Virus record (IMG/VR): IMGVR_UViG_3300043395_001174
Span: 1 to 21,024 of that record
Strand: one strand, 5' to 3'
Origin: a virus
DNA length: 21,024 nt
Below the pieces are notes generated by a model. It was not told the DNA's origin. It saw only the letters and a list, made by a program, of their open reading frames with translations, and did no database searches. Made by a program: the position numbers and the translations under genes. Positions 2,553-19,326 of this stretch are shown piece by piece. The stretch's first letter is position 1. Each line of letters starts with the position of its first letter.

Positions 2553-4379
2553 ATGAGCGATAAAGCAAACACTTGGCAACGAAGGTTCGAGAAAGCAGAA
2601 GAGGCACAAACACCTCTGTTTCGAAGAACTTCAAAATATTATGACATTATGTACGCAGTTCAAAACACAGACAACATAGCCCCTTGGCGCAGTAAGGTGT
2701 ATATACCAGTATTAGCTAGTAAAGCTTGGGACCTAATTTCCCGCTTATCTAACGTAGTGCCTTTCTTTCAGACTAAGATAGATGAACTCGAGCTAGAAGA
2801 AGCTGGTTTTGTAGTGCCTGAAGACGTGCAAAAGCGACAGATGCGCTTAGATGCCAAACTAAAGTATGATTATTCAAACGCACCAGATGAACCAATAAAG
2901 TTTAAAGTTGCAGATACTCTAACAGATGCAGTAGTAGCTGGCACAGGATGGGCTAAACTTTCTTGGGAAGTTAAAACCGAAAAGGTCTATTCAAAACAGA
3001 TTGATGAAGACGGAATGGTCAAGAACCCAGACAAAGATATAGAAGATTCTTACACTAAGGGCTGTAACCAGTTTGAGCCACTCAACTTTTTTAACGTATT
3101 TGTATCACCTAACTCACCTAGCTGGTCTAAAGCCAACTATATGATTGTCAGATACTTTAAACCATTTGAAGACCTAAAGGCTGACGGGAAGTACGATTTA
3201 TCTAAACTATTTGATAAACCTAATTACACAACTTTTGATAACTACAACAATGCTCGAAACAAAGTAGTTAACTCACAGATGACTTTCCAGACAGATGATA
3301 CTGTTAAAACAGCTACCATATATGAGTGCTATGAACGTAAAGCTGATGGCATTTACTTAACAACCTATGCTGAAGGTAAGGGACATTCATGGGTTGAGAT
3401 TCGCTCAGAAGCTAAGCGTTACTGGCACAAATACTTCCCAATAGTTCCTTTTTATATACGCAAGAAGACCTTCTCTCCTTGGGGTGAATCACTGTTCGAG
3501 AACAACGCTACACTTCAGTCTGCTACTAACGATGTCTTTAACCACTACATGGATAACTTAAACGTATCCCTAGATTCTATGATTATGTATGAAGACGGAA
3601 CTTTGACTAACGACTTCATTGTAGAACCAGGTGGAGAGATTTCGTTCACGGGTGCGCCTCCTACACAATTTAAATTCCCAGAACCTAATCCTGCTCAAAT
3701 TGCCCAAGTAAACAACGTTCTTAACGCAGCTATTGAACAAGCGACTGTACCACAGTATATCTCTGGTGTACCGAACAGCTCTACTGACAAGACCGCTGGT
3801 ACTGCCAAGGGTATATCCCTAATTACCGAAGCTGCTACCGAGAAGATAGGATTCATGCGGGATAACTTCAAACAATCTATGTCTATAGTCGGAAAGATTT
3901 GGCTTTCTAACTTGGCTCAGTTCCAAGACCAGCCAGAAATGGTTGAATACCAACAGGACGGGGAACAAAAGCCAGACATTATCCTCCCTTCTGACTACCA
4001 AGGAAAGATTGAACTAACTATAGATGACGACTCACTATTGCCATTAACCAAGGACGAGCGAAGAGACATAGCTCTCCAATTCTTAGTACAAGTAGGTCAA
4101 ACACAGAAACTAGCTATAGAACAAGCACGGTTCTTCCAAGACCCAACTTCTGTACCTAAGATTAAGTATGGTGAGTTCATAGAGGAACTAGCCCAATACT
4201 TCTCAGTTAAAGATGTATCACGTTACTTAGAGAAAGCTGTAGCTCCTATGGAGAGTGTCGTACCAGAACAAGAAGAAGGACTCCCTCAGCTTGGCGGCGG
4301 TCAATCTCCTGAAGAGGCAGCTATCCAAGGCATGCAGGGCGCAACTCAAGGATTTGAAAGTTCAGTAGGAGGAATGTAA
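2553..4379 (+). CDS. Portal (head-tail connector) protein
   Basis: This 608-aa protein is the right size for a podovirus portal, the dodecameric ring through which DNA is packaged and ejected. The N-terminus is helical and basic (MSDKANTWQRRFEKAEEAQT) and is followed by a segment seen in this class (APWRSKVYIPVLASKAWDLI, residues ~43-62). The middle is mixed alpha/beta; a helical stretch around residues 370-460 (QIAQVNNVLNAAIEQATVPQ, then TAGTAKGISLITEAATEKIG) fits the portal stem and tunnel-loop region. The C-terminus is Gln/Gly-rich and acidic. ATG 2553 has AAGGA at 2541-2545. It precedes scaffold and capsid genes, the normal order in tailed phages. Assignment rests on overall pattern and position; no short diagnostic motif exists for portals. 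Confidence 0.8.
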   Translation: MSDKANTWQRRFEKAEEAQTPLFRRTSKYYDIMYAVQNTDNIAPWRSKVYIPVLASKAWDLISRLSNVVPFFQTKIDELELEEAGFVVPEDVQKRQMRLDAKLKYDYSNAPDEPIKFKVADTLTDAVVAGTGWAKLSWEVKTEKVYSKQIDEDGMVKNPDKDIEDSYTKGCNQFEPLNFFNVFVSPNSPSWSKANYMIVRYFKPFEDLKADGKYDLSKLFDKPNYTTFDNYNNARNKVVNSQMTFQTDDTVKTATIYECYERKADGIYLTTYAEGKGHSWVEIRSEAKRYWHKYFPIVPFYIRKKTFSPWGESLFENNATLQSATNDVFNHYMDNLNVSLDSMIMYEDGTLTNDFIVEPGGEISFTGAPPTQFKFPEPNPAQIAQVNNVLNAAIEQATVPQYISGVPNSSTDKTAGTAKGISLITEAATEKIGFMRDNFKQSMSIVGKIWLSNLAQFQDQPEMVEYQQDGEQKPDIILPSDYQGKIELTIDDDSLLPLTKDERRDIALQFLVQVGQTQKLAIEQARFFQDPTSVPKIKYGEFIEELAQYFSVKDVSRYLEKAVAPMESVVPEQEEGLPQLGGGQSPEEAAIQGMQGATQGFESSVGGM

Positions 4380-7005: not shown

Positions 7006-7022
7006 GGCAAGTACTTTGCTAC

Positions 7023-7042
7023 GGGGGGACTTCGGTCCCTCC
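7023..7042 (+). other. Strong GC hairpin with UUCG tetraloop after the capsid gene
   Basis: GGGGGGAC at 7023-7030 pairs with GTCCCTCC at 7035-7042 (eight base pairs, one G-T wobble) around a C(UUCG)G loop, an exceptionally stable RNA tetraloop. It lies 33 bases after the capsid stop. No run of T follows, so it is not a standard intrinsic terminator. It could slow or partly stop transcription, protect the capsid mRNA 3' end, or be a processing site. The next gene's ribosome-binding site begins two bases after the stem. Confidence 0.65.
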
Positions 7043-7043
7043 C

Positions 7044-7050
7044 AAGGAGA
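7044..7050 (+). promoter_or_regulatory. Ribosome-binding site fixing the next start at 7061
   Basis: AAGGAGA at 7044-7050 lies ten bases before ATG 7061. An upstream in-frame TTG at 7016 would place the UUCG hairpin inside the coding region and has no such site, so 7061 is the chosen start. The hairpin ends just before this site and may affect ribosome access. Confidence 0.65.
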
Positions 7051-7060
7051 GTATCCAATT

Positions 7061-7456
7061 ATGAGAGTATCAAACACAACCACCACTACAGCCCTAGACA
7101 AGTACAATAACCTCCAGAAAGAAGCGAGGGACATTCAGAGTCTTCCGCTGTCTGCTAGATTAAAAAGTATTAAGAGATTATTGTTTAAGATTCACCCAGA
7201 CTTTATCTACGCCGATAGCCAACACTGTGCTGCCGTAGCTGACATTCGTAACGCTAATCCGTTTAATGACTTCCAACAGAGTGAACAGAAGTCCATGAGA
7301 CACTTGTTTAAAGTCCCAGAGTATATCTGGCACGCTTTAAAAGCAGACATAGAATTTGACCGACTACAGAACAGCCACAAGAAAGAGGACGCTGTTAAAT
7401 TACATAAAGCACTTTGGGACGCATTTCCAGAGTACAGGGTGGCTAACCGCTACTAG
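7061..7456 (+). CDS. 131-aa helical protein of unknown function, between capsid and adaptor
   Basis: Chosen start ATG 7061 (AAGGAGA upstream) gives MRVSNTTTTTALDKYNNL; a longer version from TTG 7016 would read through the UUCG hairpin. After a Thr-rich leader the protein is mainly helical: SARLKSIKRLLFKIHPDF (residues ~30-47), then KSMRHLFKVPEYIWHALKAD (~78-97) and EDAVKLHKALWDAFPEYRV. It is basic, with no membrane segment. The small protein between capsid and head-tail adaptor in podoviruses is sometimes a head-completion factor, but I do not recognise this family. It ends nine bases before the adaptor gene. Confidence 0.65.
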   Translation: MRVSNTTTTTALDKYNNLQKEARDIQSLPLSARLKSIKRLLFKIHPDFIYADSQHCAAVADIRNANPFNDFQQSEQKSMRHLFKVPEYIWHALKADIEFDRLQNSHKKEDAVKLHKALWDAFPEYRVANRY

Positions 7457-7465
7457 AAAGGCACT

Positions 7466-8107
7466 ATGAAATACATAACTGATTTCTTACTAACAGTAGC
7501 TTACCTAAACGGAGAGCGAACTGTTCAGTCTGCTACTACTGCTGTTAGGACTAACTTTGTTCATAACACCCTTAAAGAGATATACAGAGCCTACCCTTGG
7601 CCCTTTGCACAAGTGAACCTAGAACTAACCGTAGCTTCTGGTATAGCCTCATTACCATCTACATTTGATTACCAACATAAATTACAGGCTTATTTCTATG
7701 AGGGTGACACCCAAGTCCTCGTAGATGAGGTAAACCTAATTGACCAAACAGGGTACATAGACGGAGACAACAAACTCTGGCTAGAAGCACAATCAGATGG
7801 CACTTATCTCTTGAGAACAAAAGACTCTAGCATAACAAACATATTTACAAAATTTCAGTCTAAGGCTCCAGAGATAAATGCTTCTATAGGAACTCCTTTT
7901 GAAGACGATGCTGTGGTAGCGCAAGGTGTAAGACGATTTATTAAACTAGCACAAGACCCTAACGCAGACATATCTCAAGACGAAGCGTTATTCCAGAAAC
8001 GACTTACTGAATCAATAGCTGCCGTACAAGGCTCCCGACCTAAACGGAAGATGCGTAAGATAAGTGACGCTAACAACTACCGTATAGGCGGCGGCTACGA
8101 TGTCTAA
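7466..8107 (+). CDS. Head-tail adaptor (tail tubular protein A-like)
   Basis: The 213-aa product begins MKYITDFLLTVAYLNGERTV and has the look of the adaptor that docks under the portal ring in podoviruses (T7 gp11 / P22 gp4 role). An N-terminal helix bundle contains 'NTLKEIYRAYPWPFAQ' (residues ~35-50), the 'reiyr.ypW.fl..' pattern common in these proteins. Beta-strands follow (LELTVASGIASLPSTFDYQH). The C-terminal part is helical, basic and tail-like (RPKRKMRKISDANNYRIGGG). GAAAGG lies just before ATG 7466. It overlaps the nozzle gene by eight bases, as is usual for adaptor-nozzle pairs. Confidence rests on the Trp motif, size and gene order. Confidence 0.72.
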   Translation: MKYITDFLLTVAYLNGERTVQSATTAVRTNFVHNTLKEIYRAYPWPFAQVNLELTVASGIASLPSTFDYQHKLQAYFYEGDTQVLVDEVNLIDQTGYIDGDNKLWLEAQSDGTYLLRTKDSSITNIFTKFQSKAPEINASIGTPFEDDAVVAQGVRRFIKLAQDPNADISQDEALFQKRLTESIAAVQGSRPKRKMRKISDANNYRIGGGYDV

Positions 8108-9719
8108 AAGGCAGACTAACATACCATCTCGCCGACCGAGGGCTATTAATCGCCAAGTAGTCTACAACCCATCAAAGGGTTTTAATAATCTTGTATCTCC
8201 CTCTCTCATAGACGACAGGGAGTTTTCAGACTCCCAGAACATTGAGTATGATGAGGGCGGTGTAGCTCGAAAGAGAAGTGGCTATAGTGCTGCCCTAACT
8301 GGTTTGACCGCTGCTAAGGGGCTTGGTAACTTTGTTACAGAAACCTACCGACATATATGTACTGTAGACGGTGGTACATTTAAATACGCATCTGCTGGGG
8401 CTTTCTCTTCAAACACATCTGTATCGTTTAGCTCATCTGCTGAAATAGGTATGACTACTGCTGTAGATGACCTCTACATATGGGACGGAGTATCTGGTGG
8501 AGCTAAGTGGACAGGCACAGTACTATCACGACCAGGAACACTTCCGAGAGCTAAGTTTTCTATATATTACCAATCAGTCCAAATAGCTGCGGGAGTTTTA
8601 GGACAACCTAACCGCTTATTTATCTCTGCTACAGACGACCCAGGAATGTTTACTAGAAGTGCTACATTACTTAACAACTCTACTGAAGTACCAGGAGCAA
8701 CTGTATTCACTGACGCAACCCCTCCACAGGCTAACTATATAGATGTTCGTAAGAATGACGGAGATAGAATAACGGGGTTAGCTCGCTATCAGGATATAGT
8801 TTTAGTCTTTAAGGAGCGTTCTATTTACCAGTTCTACTTTGATAATAACGGCGACCCAGTAGTGTCACTTGTGACTGGTTCTACTGGATGCGTAGGGCAC
8901 CAAACTATCGAAGCTGTAGAAAATGACATCTACTTCCTTTCTCGTGAAGGTGTTCGTGTAATCGGAAACGAACCTAACTTCTTTACCTCTATTCGTACTA
9001 ATGTATTATCTGTTAGAATCCAGCCCACAATAGACTCTATTAATCCTCAATACTACGAGAAGTGCAAAGCACACTACTACGACAACAAGTACTTCCTGTC
9101 AGTCCCAACTACCAGTTCTACGATAGCTCTTACGCTAGTATATGACCGCAGGTTCCAGTCATGGAGCAAGTGGACTAACTTTAACGCTACTGGATATATT
9201 AAATATGTCGATACAAGCAATGATGAACACTTCTACTTTCTAAGCTCTGATGGTACTAAAATATACGAGTTCGAACCTGGTACCTATAACGATGATGGTA
9301 CAGCTATAGATGCTTTTATAGTCTCTAAGGCCTTTGATGCTAAGAATCCTGACATTATGAAGTATTGGGTAGATATAGGTTTAGTATTTAGGCGACTAGC
9401 AGGACAGGTTGATATTACAGTTTACACAGACGGCGGAGCCTTGCTAGGCACAGGAACTATATCCCAGGGTTCTGTGGACGGGATGGGGCTCTTGCCGCTG
9501 GGACAACAAGGACTTGGGTTTGGAACTATGGAGACATCTGAAGATACGTTGTTCTCAGATGAGCCACAAAGAGTAGTAGTTAACACTAACTCTCGTACAG
9601 TTAAGTTTAAGATTCAGAATGACCGCCTTAATGAGAACTTCGTTTTCCTGGGGTATATCCTTGCCTACTTCCCATTCACACATTATGTTTTCGACAGTTC
9701 ACGAAAGATATACTTATGA
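8100..9719 (+). CDS. Tail nozzle protein (tail tubular protein B / beta-propeller-like)
   Basis: The 539-aa protein follows the adaptor with an eight-base overlap. Its N-terminal 'GFNNLVSPSLIDDREFSDSQ' (residues ~27-46), then 'YDEGGVARKRSGY', is characteristic of podovirus tail nozzle or stabilisation proteins, in which several blades of a beta-propeller form the lower part of the short tail. Propeller-type strands continue (DDLYIWDGVSGGAKWTG; ARYQDIVLVFKERSIYQFYF at ~225-245; KYFLSVPTTSS; FYFLSSDGTKIYEFEPG). The C-terminal 150 residues are a beta-sandwich-like region. It ends at TGA 9717-9719. Role: tube through which DNA passes; acts in the virion. Confidence 0.75.
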   Translation: MSKRQTNIPSRRPRAINRQVVYNPSKGFNNLVSPSLIDDREFSDSQNIEYDEGGVARKRSGYSAALTGLTAAKGLGNFVTETYRHICTVDGGTFKYASAGAFSSNTSVSFSSSAEIGMTTAVDDLYIWDGVSGGAKWTGTVLSRPGTLPRAKFSIYYQSVQIAAGVLGQPNRLFISATDDPGMFTRSATLLNNSTEVPGATVFTDATPPQANYIDVRKNDGDRITGLARYQDIVLVFKERSIYQFYFDNNGDPVVSLVTGSTGCVGHQTIEAVENDIYFLSREGVRVIGNEPNFFTSIRTNVLSVRIQPTIDSINPQYYEKCKAHYYDNKYFLSVPTTSSTIALTLVYDRRFQSWSKWTNFNATGYIKYVDTSNDEHFYFLSSDGTKIYEFEPGTYNDDGTAIDAFIVSKAFDAKNPDIMKYWVDIGLVFRRLAGQVDITVYTDGGALLGTGTISQGSVDGMGLLPLGQQGLGFGTMETSEDTLFSDEPQRVVVNTNSRTVKFKIQNDRLNENFVFLGYILAYFPFTHYVFDSSRKIYL

Positions 9720-15393: not shown

Positions 15394-15873
15394 ATGGCAA
15401 GCGAATTACTTTCATCAACATGGGAACCAGAGACAGATTCTGTTCTATGGAACAGGATAGTCGAGCGTACCACTGTGACCACCGACTGTTGGTATTGGAC
15501 TGGCAAGCCAGCTAACACGGGCTATGGCCAGATAAGCCGAAACCATGTGGTGAGAAATCCTCACAGAATTGTTTATGAGATGTTGATAGGTGAGATACCA
15601 GAAGGACTACAACTCGACCATTTATGTCGAAACAGGATTTGTGTTAATCCGAGACACCTTGAGCCAGTTACTCAAAAAGAAAATCTATTGAGGTCTCCAA
15701 TTACTGTTCCGTCTTTGAACAGAGCAAAAACACACTGTCCAAAAAACCATGAATATAGTGCAGGGAATACTAGGATAGAAAAAGATGGTAGCCGTAGATG
15801 TAAACAATGTTCTTATACTAGAAAAAAAGCTTGGAGAAAAAGATTACAAGCAGAAGGAAAGAGGTACTCATAA
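15394..15873 (+). CDS. HNH homing endonuclease (HNH_3 type)
   Basis: The 159-aa product shows the HNH_3 pattern: CWYWTGKPANTGYGQI (residues 32-47), HRIVYEMLIGEIPEGLQLDH (57-76), then CRNRICVNPRHLE (78-90), with His76, Asn85 and His88 as the likely metal/catalytic residues and Cys78/Cys83 in the knuckle. A C-terminal zinc site is likely from Cys115, His119, Cys136 and Cys139 (HCPKNHEY; CKQC). Such free-standing enzymes cut unoccupied target DNA and spread by repair. The first 13 residues (MASELLSSTWEPE) resemble the tail-fibre start (MATGLLSADWESE, 8 of 13 identical). Its stop overlaps the fibre ATG by one base. It is intact, with no frameshift or missing key residue. Confidence 0.88.
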   Translation: MASELLSSTWEPETDSVLWNRIVERTTVTTDCWYWTGKPANTGYGQISRNHVVRNPHRIVYEMLIGEIPEGLQLDHLCRNRICVNPRHLEPVTQKENLLRSPITVPSLNRAKTHCPKNHEYSAGNTRIEKDGSRRCKQCSYTRKKAWRKRLQAEGKRYS

Positions 15874-17594: not shown

Positions 17595-17843
17595 ATGACC
17601 GCTAAAGAACTAAAAGAAAACAACGCAGAACTCGTCCTTTACCGTTTAGACGCTATTGACACGAAGTTAAAGGAACTTGATAAAAAGGTTGACCATAACT
17701 TTGTTAATAAAGACACCTACAACGTAGAGGTTGGTTCACTGAAAGATGACGTTAAGTATCTTAAAAACCTAGTTTATGGGGCAGTCGGTACATTTATAGC
17801 CCTAGCTATAGCAGCAGCTACAGCAGGAAGGTTCATGAAGTGA
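17595..17843 (+). CDS. XhlA/holin-like small membrane protein
   Basis: The 82-aa product has a charged heptad-repeat helix (residues 5-58, YRLDAIDTKLKELDKKVDHN and VEVGSLKDDVKYLKNL) and one C-terminal hydrophobic segment (~60-77, VYGAVGTFIALAIAAATAG) with a basic end (RFMK). This is the layout of XhlA/BhlA-type lysis proteins: N-terminus inside, one transmembrane helix. It is followed by another membrane protein and an M23 peptidase, so a holin or holin-partner role is likely. Start ATG 17595 has AGGACA upstream, nine bases after the tail-fibre stop. Its stop overlaps the GTG start of the next gene by three bases (GTGA). Confidence 0.7.
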   Translation: MTAKELKENNAELVLYRLDAIDTKLKELDKKVDHNFVNKDTYNVEVGSLKDDVKYLKNLVYGAVGTFIALAIAAATAGRFMK

Positions 17844-18298
17844 CACGGACTGAGCGCATTATCGTCAGGTGGCTGACAGCTTTCTTATACGGCGCAGCAG
17901 GATTCATCATGATTGGCATTGGTATGTGGTTCTTTCCTAGACAGGTAGTTAAATCAGCGACCCTCATGGAAACCAATAAATCAGAATACGACCTTAACGA
18001 GCCAATTATCGTTTCAGGTGAAACTTGGACAAACGTAGACAGCGCAGCTAACTTTGATGTTCGACTTATCTGTAATGGAGTGAAGTACGCCTACACCCAG
18101 ATAAACGACCTACAAGTGAGTAAACAAGTCGCACCAGTTAAGTATAAGTTCTCTTACGGAAAAGTACCTGAGTATATCCCTAACGGCTCAACCTGCCGTA
18201 TAGAAACTACCGCAGATTACACAGTACAAGTTCTCCCTCTACTAAACAGACACTACCAGTACAAGTTCAACAGTAACGGTTTTCAAATAAAAGAATAG
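17840..18298 (+). CDS. Single-pass membrane protein with external beta domain, in the lysis cassette
   Basis: The frame uses GTG 17840 as its start (AGGAAGG upstream; GTGA overlaps the previous stop). Residues 1-10 are basic and residues 11-32 are a transmembrane segment (WLTAFLYGAAGFIMIGIGMW). The ~120 remaining residues (SEYDLNEPIIVSGETWTNVD and onward) look like a beta-sandwich with two cysteines (in RLICNG and STCRIE) that could form a disulfide. By topology it is a signal-anchored protein with its domain outside the cytoplasmic membrane. Its place between the XhlA-like protein and endolysin suggests a lysis accessory or regulator. It lacks a lipobox, so it is not a typical outer spanin. 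Function not recognised. Confidence 0.65.
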   Translation: MTRTERIIVRWLTAFLYGAAGFIMIGIGMWFFPRQVVKSATLMETNKSEYDLNEPIIVSGETWTNVDSAANFDVRLICNGVKYAYTQINDLQVSKQVAPVKYKFSYGKVPEYIPNGSTCRIETTADYTVQVLPLLNRHYQYKFNSNGFQIKE

Positions 18299-18307
18299 GA
18301 GTAGGTA

Positions 18308-19150
18308 ATGAGACGACCAGTAGACTCACCGTACACCATAACAACGGAGTTCGGTGTACCAGATTCAAACGCTAAGTTCGGGTATCACTCGGGTGTGGAT
18401 TATTCAAAGGCCACAGGGAGTAATGTATTCGCCCCAGTATCAGGAACTTTAACTCAAGTAGTCAGCCCAACAGGTGGCAACATGGTAGTTATTCGTGACA
18501 ATCAGGGCTTTACCCACCGACTCATGCACAACTCTCAGTTCATTAAACCAAACGGAGCAGTTTCAGAAGGTGAGATAGTCGCTAAATCAGGTACTACGGG
18601 TCTCTCTACAGGCCCACATGTTCATTGGGATATTAATAAAGAGGGTACTTATCCTTCATCATTCGCAGCATTTATACCGCCAGCAGACTGGCTTGCTGGT
18701 AAATATAACCAAGTAACGCCACCAGTGGCAGGAGGAAACAATATGTTCCAAAACGACGCAGAAGTCCAAGAGGCTTATCTATTACTAAGAGGCAATCCTG
18801 GTACAGCAGCAGAACGAGCTGGCTGGATAGGTCAAAGCAAGCAAAGGTTTTTCCAAGTTGCAAAACCAGAAGCCGATAGTTACCGCACTCAATTAACGAA
18901 CGCCCAGAACTCAGTCAAAGCACTCACAACGCAAGTAACTTCACTAAATGCTAAAGTCGCACAATTAACGACGCAAATAACTACCCTTACCAACCAAGTA
19001 AACCAACTCACTACTACAGTAGCAGCTAAAGATAAAGAAATAGCCACGCTCAAAGCCCAAGTAGCTACAGGCAGCGGTGAAGACACAGCCCTATTAAATG
19101 GATTCGGTGAATTGTTAAGAAAACTAATAGTACGATTAGGAGTAAAATAA
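18308..19150 (+). CDS. Endolysin: M23 metallopeptidase with coiled-coil C-terminus
   Basis: The 280-aa product has an M23 (LytM/lysostaphin) peptidase domain at residues ~1-125 that would cut peptidoglycan cross-links. The zinc residues are visible: His27 and Asp31 (YHSGVDYS), His70/His74 (HRLMH), and His104/His106 (GPHVHWD). A linker (~130-145) leads to a small domain (residues ~146-190, AEVQEAYLLLRGNPG) resembling repeat modules seen beside phage lysins, then a Thr/Gln heptad coiled coil (~205-252, LTTQVTSLNAKVAQLTTQIT) and a C-terminal amphipathic end (LRKLIVRLGVK). There is no signal peptide, so release needs the membrane proteins beside it. Start ATG 18308 has TAGGAG upstream. A second strong start is found at 18743. 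Confidence 0.85.
   Translation: MRRPVDSPYTITTEFGVPDSNAKFGYHSGVDYSKATGSNVFAPVSGTLTQVVSPTGGNMVVIRDNQGFTHRLMHNSQFIKPNGAVSEGEIVAKSGTTGLSTGPHVHWDINKEGTYPSSFAAFIPPADWLAGKYNQVTPPVAGGNNMFQNDAEVQEAYLLLRGNPGTAAERAGWIGQSKQRFFQVAKPEADSYRTQLTNAQNSVKALTTQVTSLNAKVAQLTTQITTLTNQVNQLTTTVAAKDKEIATLKAQVATGSGEDTALLNGFGELLRKLIVRLGVK
18730..18735 (+). promoter_or_regulatory. Internal ribosome-binding site inside the endolysin gene
   Basis: AGGAGG at 18730-18735 lies seven bases before in-frame ATG 18743, a perfect spacing and the strongest such site within this gene. It falls exactly at the boundary between the peptidase domain and the C-terminal domain. Confidence 0.55.
18743..19150 (+). CDS. Possible separate C-terminal subunit of the endolysin from an internal start
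   Basis: Initiation at in-frame ATG 18743 (residue 146 of the M23 protein) would make a 135-aa product beginning MFQNDAEVQEAYLLLRGNPG that lacks the peptidase and holds the small domain, the coiled coil and the basic end. AGGAGG seven bases upstream supports real use. Dual-start endolysins, where an internal start makes extra copies of the wall-binding domain that assemble with the full protein, are known in Clostridium and Enterococcus phages. The coiled coil would provide the assembly surface. Production is inferred from the signal, not shown. Confidence 0.5.
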   Translation: MFQNDAEVQEAYLLLRGNPGTAAERAGWIGQSKQRFFQVAKPEADSYRTQLTNAQNSVKALTTQVTSLNAKVAQLTTQITTLTNQVNQLTTTVAAKDKEIATLKAQVATGSGEDTALLNGFGELLRKLIVRLGVK

Positions 19151-19326
19151 TGTTTAATCTACCAACCCCACAAACAGCCCTCGGTAAAGCAGCAGAGCGA
19201 GCTATCCTCGTCTGTGTCGCTACTATCATCGCAGCCGTCCTACAAGACGCTAAGATTGGTCCAGTTGTCTACTTCGCTCTCAAGACTACCCTCGATGTTC
19301 TAAACAGCAACATCAATAACTTATAG
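19150..19326 (+). CDS. 58-aa membrane-associated protein, possible holin or holin partner
   Basis: A short frame, ATG 19150 (one base into the endolysin stop, TAATG) to TAG 19324-19326, with TAGGAGT just upstream inside the endolysin gene. The peptide (MFNLPTPQTALGKAAERAIL ...) has a hydrophobic run at residues ~18-32 (AILVCVATIIAAVL) and a second, weaker one around 37-50 (GPVVYFALKTTL), so one or two membrane segments are possible. Size and place at the end of the lysis cassette fit a small holin or antiholin. No family motif is visible. Confidence 0.6.
   Translation: MFNLPTPQTALGKAAERAILVCVATIIAAVLQDAKIGPVVYFALKTTLDVLNSNINNL

Follow-up and report, generated by a model that had tools for sequence, protein, structure and literature searches.

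Endolysin gene and lysis cassette

The window analysed here, a stretch of 21,024 nucleotides, comprises a 21-kb record from a tailed, uncultured phage and encodes a portal protein, a major head protein, and an LPD38 protein. An open reading frame (ORF) with an ATG start, located at 18308..19150 on the + strand, codes for a 280-amino-acid endolysin composed of an M23 endopeptidase and a helical C-terminal tail. The peptidase domain, residues 26-114 (18383..18649, +), matches Pfam PF01551 (Peptidase_M23, E=1.4e-19) with a score of 70.5 bits, against a curated cut-off of 28.7. Residues H27, D31, H74, H104, and H106 are invariant in this protein and in the lysins of three relatives, L001, L046, and L016; we take them to be the metal/catalytic His and Asp residues, as in LytM-type enzymes. 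With a score above the cut-off and these residues in place, the window lysin belongs to peptidase family M23, and its peptidoglycan hydrolase domain is N-terminal, as in type II lysins.

The surrounding genes form a lysis cassette, where genes of type II lysins are also expected. Upstream, an XhlA-like membrane protein (17595..17843, +) matches PHROG 1193 hemolysin with E=2.2e-5. Downstream, the start of a gene for a 58-amino-acid putative holin (19150..19326, +) overlaps the lysin stop region; the protein itself has no family match, but its counterparts in L001, L016, and L046 match r1t holin or PHROG 443 holin, and its assignment rests on this homology and on position. The cassette also contains, at 17840-18298, a gene with a GTG start for a 152-amino-acid protein with an N-terminal hydrophobic stretch, which is absent from L001, L016, and L046 and has no match in Pfam, PHROGs, or phage records. 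A resemblance of this protein to the neighbour of another M23 lysin gene (L047) was considered and rejected, as the two share no sequence similarity.

M23 domains of this kind also have matches among phage tail and internal virion protein families, and a tail-fibre-like gene with a Laminin_G_3 domain is located upstream, as might be expected if the protein were a virion-associated peptidoglycan hydrolase and not an endolysin. However, at all four loci the protein is compact (253-288 amino acids), is encoded between XhlA-like and holin-like genes, and does not belong to a tape-measure or internal virion protein. We consider a virion function very improbable and refer to the protein as an endolysin below. 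Elsewhere in the window, an HNH endonuclease gene is located between the LPD38 and tail-fibre-like genes (15394-15873); a similar-looking ORF occupies the same place in L016 (1949-2371), and this gene is probably a homing insertion.

The internal start site and its conservation

As noted in a sequence-only reading of this DNA, the sequence AGGAGG (18730..18735, +) precedes an ATG within the lysin gene by seven bases (AAACAAT). The ATG, at 18743-18745, is codon 146 and is in frame; the predicted short product, encoded by 18743..19150 (+), is 135 amino acids long, with a mass of 14.6 kDa. The description of this start as strong also held. AGGAGG-N7-ATG occurs once in the window when both strands are searched (10 of 100 dinucleotide shuffles of the window contained at least one occurrence). 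The anti-Shine-Dalgarno (anti-SD) energy at ATG 18743, -10.3 kcal/mol, is the lowest among 726 intragenic start codons (168 in frame and 558 out of frame), and slightly below that of every gene start listed in the window (the best of those, at 4379, has -10.2). In a simplified RBS model that takes local folding and spacing into account, ATG 18743 (-3.9) tops the 155 internal in-frame starts of the window and lies slightly ahead of the start of the lysin itself (-3.0); four gene starts are stronger. The same gene list contains a TTG start that is probably wrong, that of 7016-7456, where ATG 7061 with AAGGAG upstream is far stronger.

The site had been placed exactly between the M23 domain and a coiled coil. 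It does lie at a domain joint, after the peptidase and before a small helical head (residues ~150-173), but ca. 30 residues ahead of the coiled coil.

Taken alone, the window site is weak evidence and is not significant by itself. When the protein sequence was held fixed, an equal or better SD at codon 146 was found in 18% of synonymous shuffles, and an equally good in-frame start anywhere in the lysin gene in 29%. The site could thus be a by-product of a Gly-Gly-Asn-Asn linker coded by frequent codons, with little or no short protein made or used, since Gly-Gly written as GGA-GGN easily yields such a string. In a published lysin survey (PMC9430671), internal starts are also predicted in 15% of portal genes, where none is known, and these were taken as false positives. 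For both reasons a single gene would not settle the matter, and it is the comparison with relatives that carries weight.

IMG/VR was searched for homologues with several seeds, namely the lysin and its alignment, DNA patterns for the joint and the HxH motif, and, from other genes, the XhlA-like sequence, the LPD38 protein, and the exonuclease encoded downstream; only three close relatives were obtained. The L001 lysin is 62% identical to the window lysin over residues 1-224; L016 was retrieved through the downstream exonuclease gene, and L046 is 48% identical to L016. Nine of the ten matches to the joint pattern (L004-L012) encode no relative and were dropped.

All three relatives have an in-frame start with its own RBS between the catalytic and the non-catalytic part, the arrangement that defines type II lysins and that is also found in the window. 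The joint reads ACAGGAGGTAACAAC-GTG in L001 and GCAGGAGGAGCAAAC-GTG in L046 (AGGAGG, 7 nucleotides, and GTG in both cases), and ATTAAGGAGACAAGT-ATG in L016 (AAGGAG, 6 nucleotides, and ATG). The check proposed for the internal start, conservation in homologues, therefore came out in its favour in three of three cases. By the RBS model, the joint site is the best internal start in each of the four lysins and is stronger than the lysin's own start each time (-3.9 versus -3.0 in the window; -5.7 versus -2.9, -3.4 versus +2.1, and -8.6 versus -4.6 in the relatives). When 324 in-frame internal starts from 40 genes of the four loci were pooled and the best site of each gene was ranked, the lysin joints took ranks 1, 3, 4, and 5. 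By counting, four given genes fall in four of the top five places among 40 with a chance of 36/658008, or ca. 5e-5, a number that is a guide and not a P-value because the lysin genes are related. The second rank (-7.2) belongs to ATG 8157 of L001, 51 codons into a long ORF (8004-9284), which points to a wrongly placed gene start or to a further two-product gene.

With the protein fixed, the chance of both a start codon and an SD at the joint was 0.18 in the window, 0.004 in L001, 0.018 in L046, and 0.07 in L016; the four lysins constitute two closely related pairs and hence are not independent. An SD of equal strength alone appeared in 23% of the synonymous shuffles for L046, which, like the 18% in the window, is in keeping with a by-product of the linker. 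Yet L016 has AAGGAG and ATG at the same joint without a Gly-Gly linker. The start residue is Met in the window and Val in L001, yet both have a start codon, and L001 and L046 use GTG, a minority Val codon (chance 0.13 and 0.07, respectively), and not the commoner ones. The ranks of the joints among the 40 genes also argue against a by-product, and, however it arose, an SD this strong next to a start codon would bring about some initiation. We therefore regard the linker explanation as unlikely.

Tail structure and tail exchange

The window lysin and its predicted short product were modelled with AlphaFold2 as single chains on shallow alignments; the full-length model, with a mean pLDDT of 57.8, is of too low quality to support a fold search. 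The predicted tail consists of the helical head, a long helix, and a short C-terminal helix. The long helix, a predicted coiled coil, spans residues 178-253 (18839..19066, +; residues 33-109 of the short product); block means in its central part are above 90, every one of its nine a positions is V, I, or L, and Leu is found at six of the eight d positions. Generic coiled-coil matches in Pfam and NCBIfam (ATG16, FlgK, SMC, and similar) were set aside as convergent. The coiled coil is not shared by the whole group, as in its place L001 and L046 carry a stalk that contains proline, with the motifs PP and KEV.KIVEK. The earlier suggestion that a Thr/Gln coiled coil offers the assembly surface is thus unlikely to apply generally. 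The C-terminal helix of the window lysin (residues 257-276; 19076..19135, +) is amphipathic and has the highest hydrophobic moment of the tail, and the last 14-20 residues form an amphipathic helix with a similar hydrophobic moment in all four lysins. Common to the four are, therefore, the internal start, a helical or stalk-like tail, and this terminal helix. None of the four tails has a specific Pfam or INPHARED match or a match to a known cell-wall-binding domain.

To compare the modules, each of the four proteins was split at the internal start and the parts were compared by blastp. The peptidase parts fall into two pairs, window/L001 (77% identical) and L046/L016 (79%), with ca. 42% identity between the pairs. 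The tails do not follow this pairing. L001 and L046, whose peptidase parts are 43% identical, have tails that are 56% identical over 57 amino acids, while the tails of L046 and L016 show no significant similarity (blastp E=1.4). We conclude from these comparisons that tails have been swapped across the joint while the internal start persisted.

A start located exactly at the junction of unrelated tails could also be a relic, left when an M23 gene was fused to a downstream tail gene with its own RBS; a short product would then be possible, but not needed. A layout of this kind exists in Arthrobacter phage Mariposa (Decurrovirus), where a small M23 lysin gene, gp16, overlaps a second lysis gene, the amidase gp17 (the two genes together at L051 2489-3573), and a holin gene follows. 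Mariposa gp16 is 40% identical to the L016 lysin over residues 1-144 but, unlike the window lysin, is a separate gene unfused to a tail. The gp17 gene has a very strong internal start of its own, AGGAGG-N5-ATG at codon 156 (score -8.8 versus -2.2 for its own start), which predicts a free C-terminal product of 58 amino acids. A fusion origin has also been proposed for type I internal starts (PMC12203907). However, a search for a stand-alone tail gene found none, and a relic would be expected to decay, while the site is strong in two lineages whose peptidase parts have diverged to the level given above. A mere relic seems to us improbable, even more so than a by-product of the linker. The first copy of the internal start could nevertheless stem from fusion of a gene with its own RBS, as a fusion origin and present use of the start are compatible. 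On the basis of these alignments, nothing argues more strongly for use of the free tail than retention of the start despite tail exchange.

A probable two-product M23 endolysin

Two-product lysins of type II are already known, and the two-start coding layout of lysins has experimental precedents (PMC9430671, PMC12203907). Lys170, LysIME-EF1, CTP1L, CD27L, and LysP7951 (PMC9430671, PMC7098653, PMC4777826) have, like the window lysin, one N-terminal catalytic domain. They also share with it an in-frame internal start with its own RBS ahead of the C-terminal part, so that the short product is the C-terminal part alone, as predicted in the window. They differ in the catalytic domain, which is M23 in the window and in none of those named, and in the tail, which in the window is a helical head followed by a long helix or stalk and an amphipathic helix, with no match to known binding domains. 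A literature search confined to main texts, including that of a survey of 3,780 lysins, found no description of an M23 type II lysin.

Among M23 lysins, the closest precedent is Ply2638A of staphylococcal phage phi2638A, which is type I. Like the window lysin, it has an N-terminal M23 endopeptidase; its internal start, downstream of this domain, was shown by experiment, and its two isoforms together speed progeny release (PMC12203907). In contrast to the window, its internal start is TTG, its short form carries an amidase and an SH3b domain, and the isoforms pair via the amidase domain (PMC12203907). The earlier suggestion that an M23 two-product lysin would be a less usual version thus holds less well, since Ply2638A provides a precedent, albeit of type I.

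Mycobacteriophage LysA proteins with M23 (e.g., Nadezda and Paito) likewise have M23 first, with only ca. 26-28% identity to the window domain, but are built as type I lysins, which also carry a second catalytic domain and end in a peptidoglycan-binding-like C terminus. Internal starts are known in Ms6 LysA (PMC3314691), and Nadezda LysA (L057) has AGGAGGT before TTG at codon 154, at the joint of M23 and amidase (anti-SD energy -11.6); this is a possible type I internal start, although local folding gives it a poor model score. The control M23 genes, Moonbeam peptidase, Kovu endolysin, and L047, a related M23 protein with a short tail, lack a strong start at the joint, and an internal joint start is therefore not general to M23.

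The sequences themselves provide the ORF, its peptidase, the internal site, conservation of this site at the joint in four phages, and the exchange of tails across it. Together they make it quite probable that the window gene is a type II two-product endolysin, an M23 enzyme with a free tail subunit produced by means of two translation starts. Initiation at ATG 18308 would yield the 280-amino-acid M23 peptidoglycan endopeptidase, while initiation at ATG 18743, directed by AGGAGG, would yield the non-catalytic helical tail, of which there would probably be at least as much as of the enzyme. That the two proteins are both produced and assemble with each other, and that the tail attaches to an envelope component, is our inference. 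Free tails would most likely join the tail of the full-length enzyme by way of the helical stalk, the amphipathic helix at the C terminus, or both; of the two, the terminal helix seems the likelier contact, since it is common to all four lysins. The resulting complex would contain one or few catalytic domains and several tails, which would raise binding to the cell wall or envelope in the manner of Lys170, LysIME-EF1, CTP1L, and LysP7951; known stoichiometries of lysins with free subunits are 1:3, 2:2, and 1:5 (PMC9430671).

More tentatively, and with considerable doubt, the free tail can be pictured not as a compact cell-wall-binding domain but as a helical stalk of ca. 11 nm that ends in an amphipathic basic helix. 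Several such tails might form a bundle with a single M23 enzyme and make contact with the membrane or envelope, and whole tail modules might be exchanged at the internal start, so that the lysin would be a two-gene system collapsed into one frame.

If the two-product reading is true, an uncultured phage group whose lysins have an M23 type II layout would join the known cases of two-product lysins, and the group would offer a natural case of an internal start kept while the tail behind it is replaced. This would bear on why internal starts in lysin genes are retained, and would favour the need for a free subunit over the persistence of a fusion relic.
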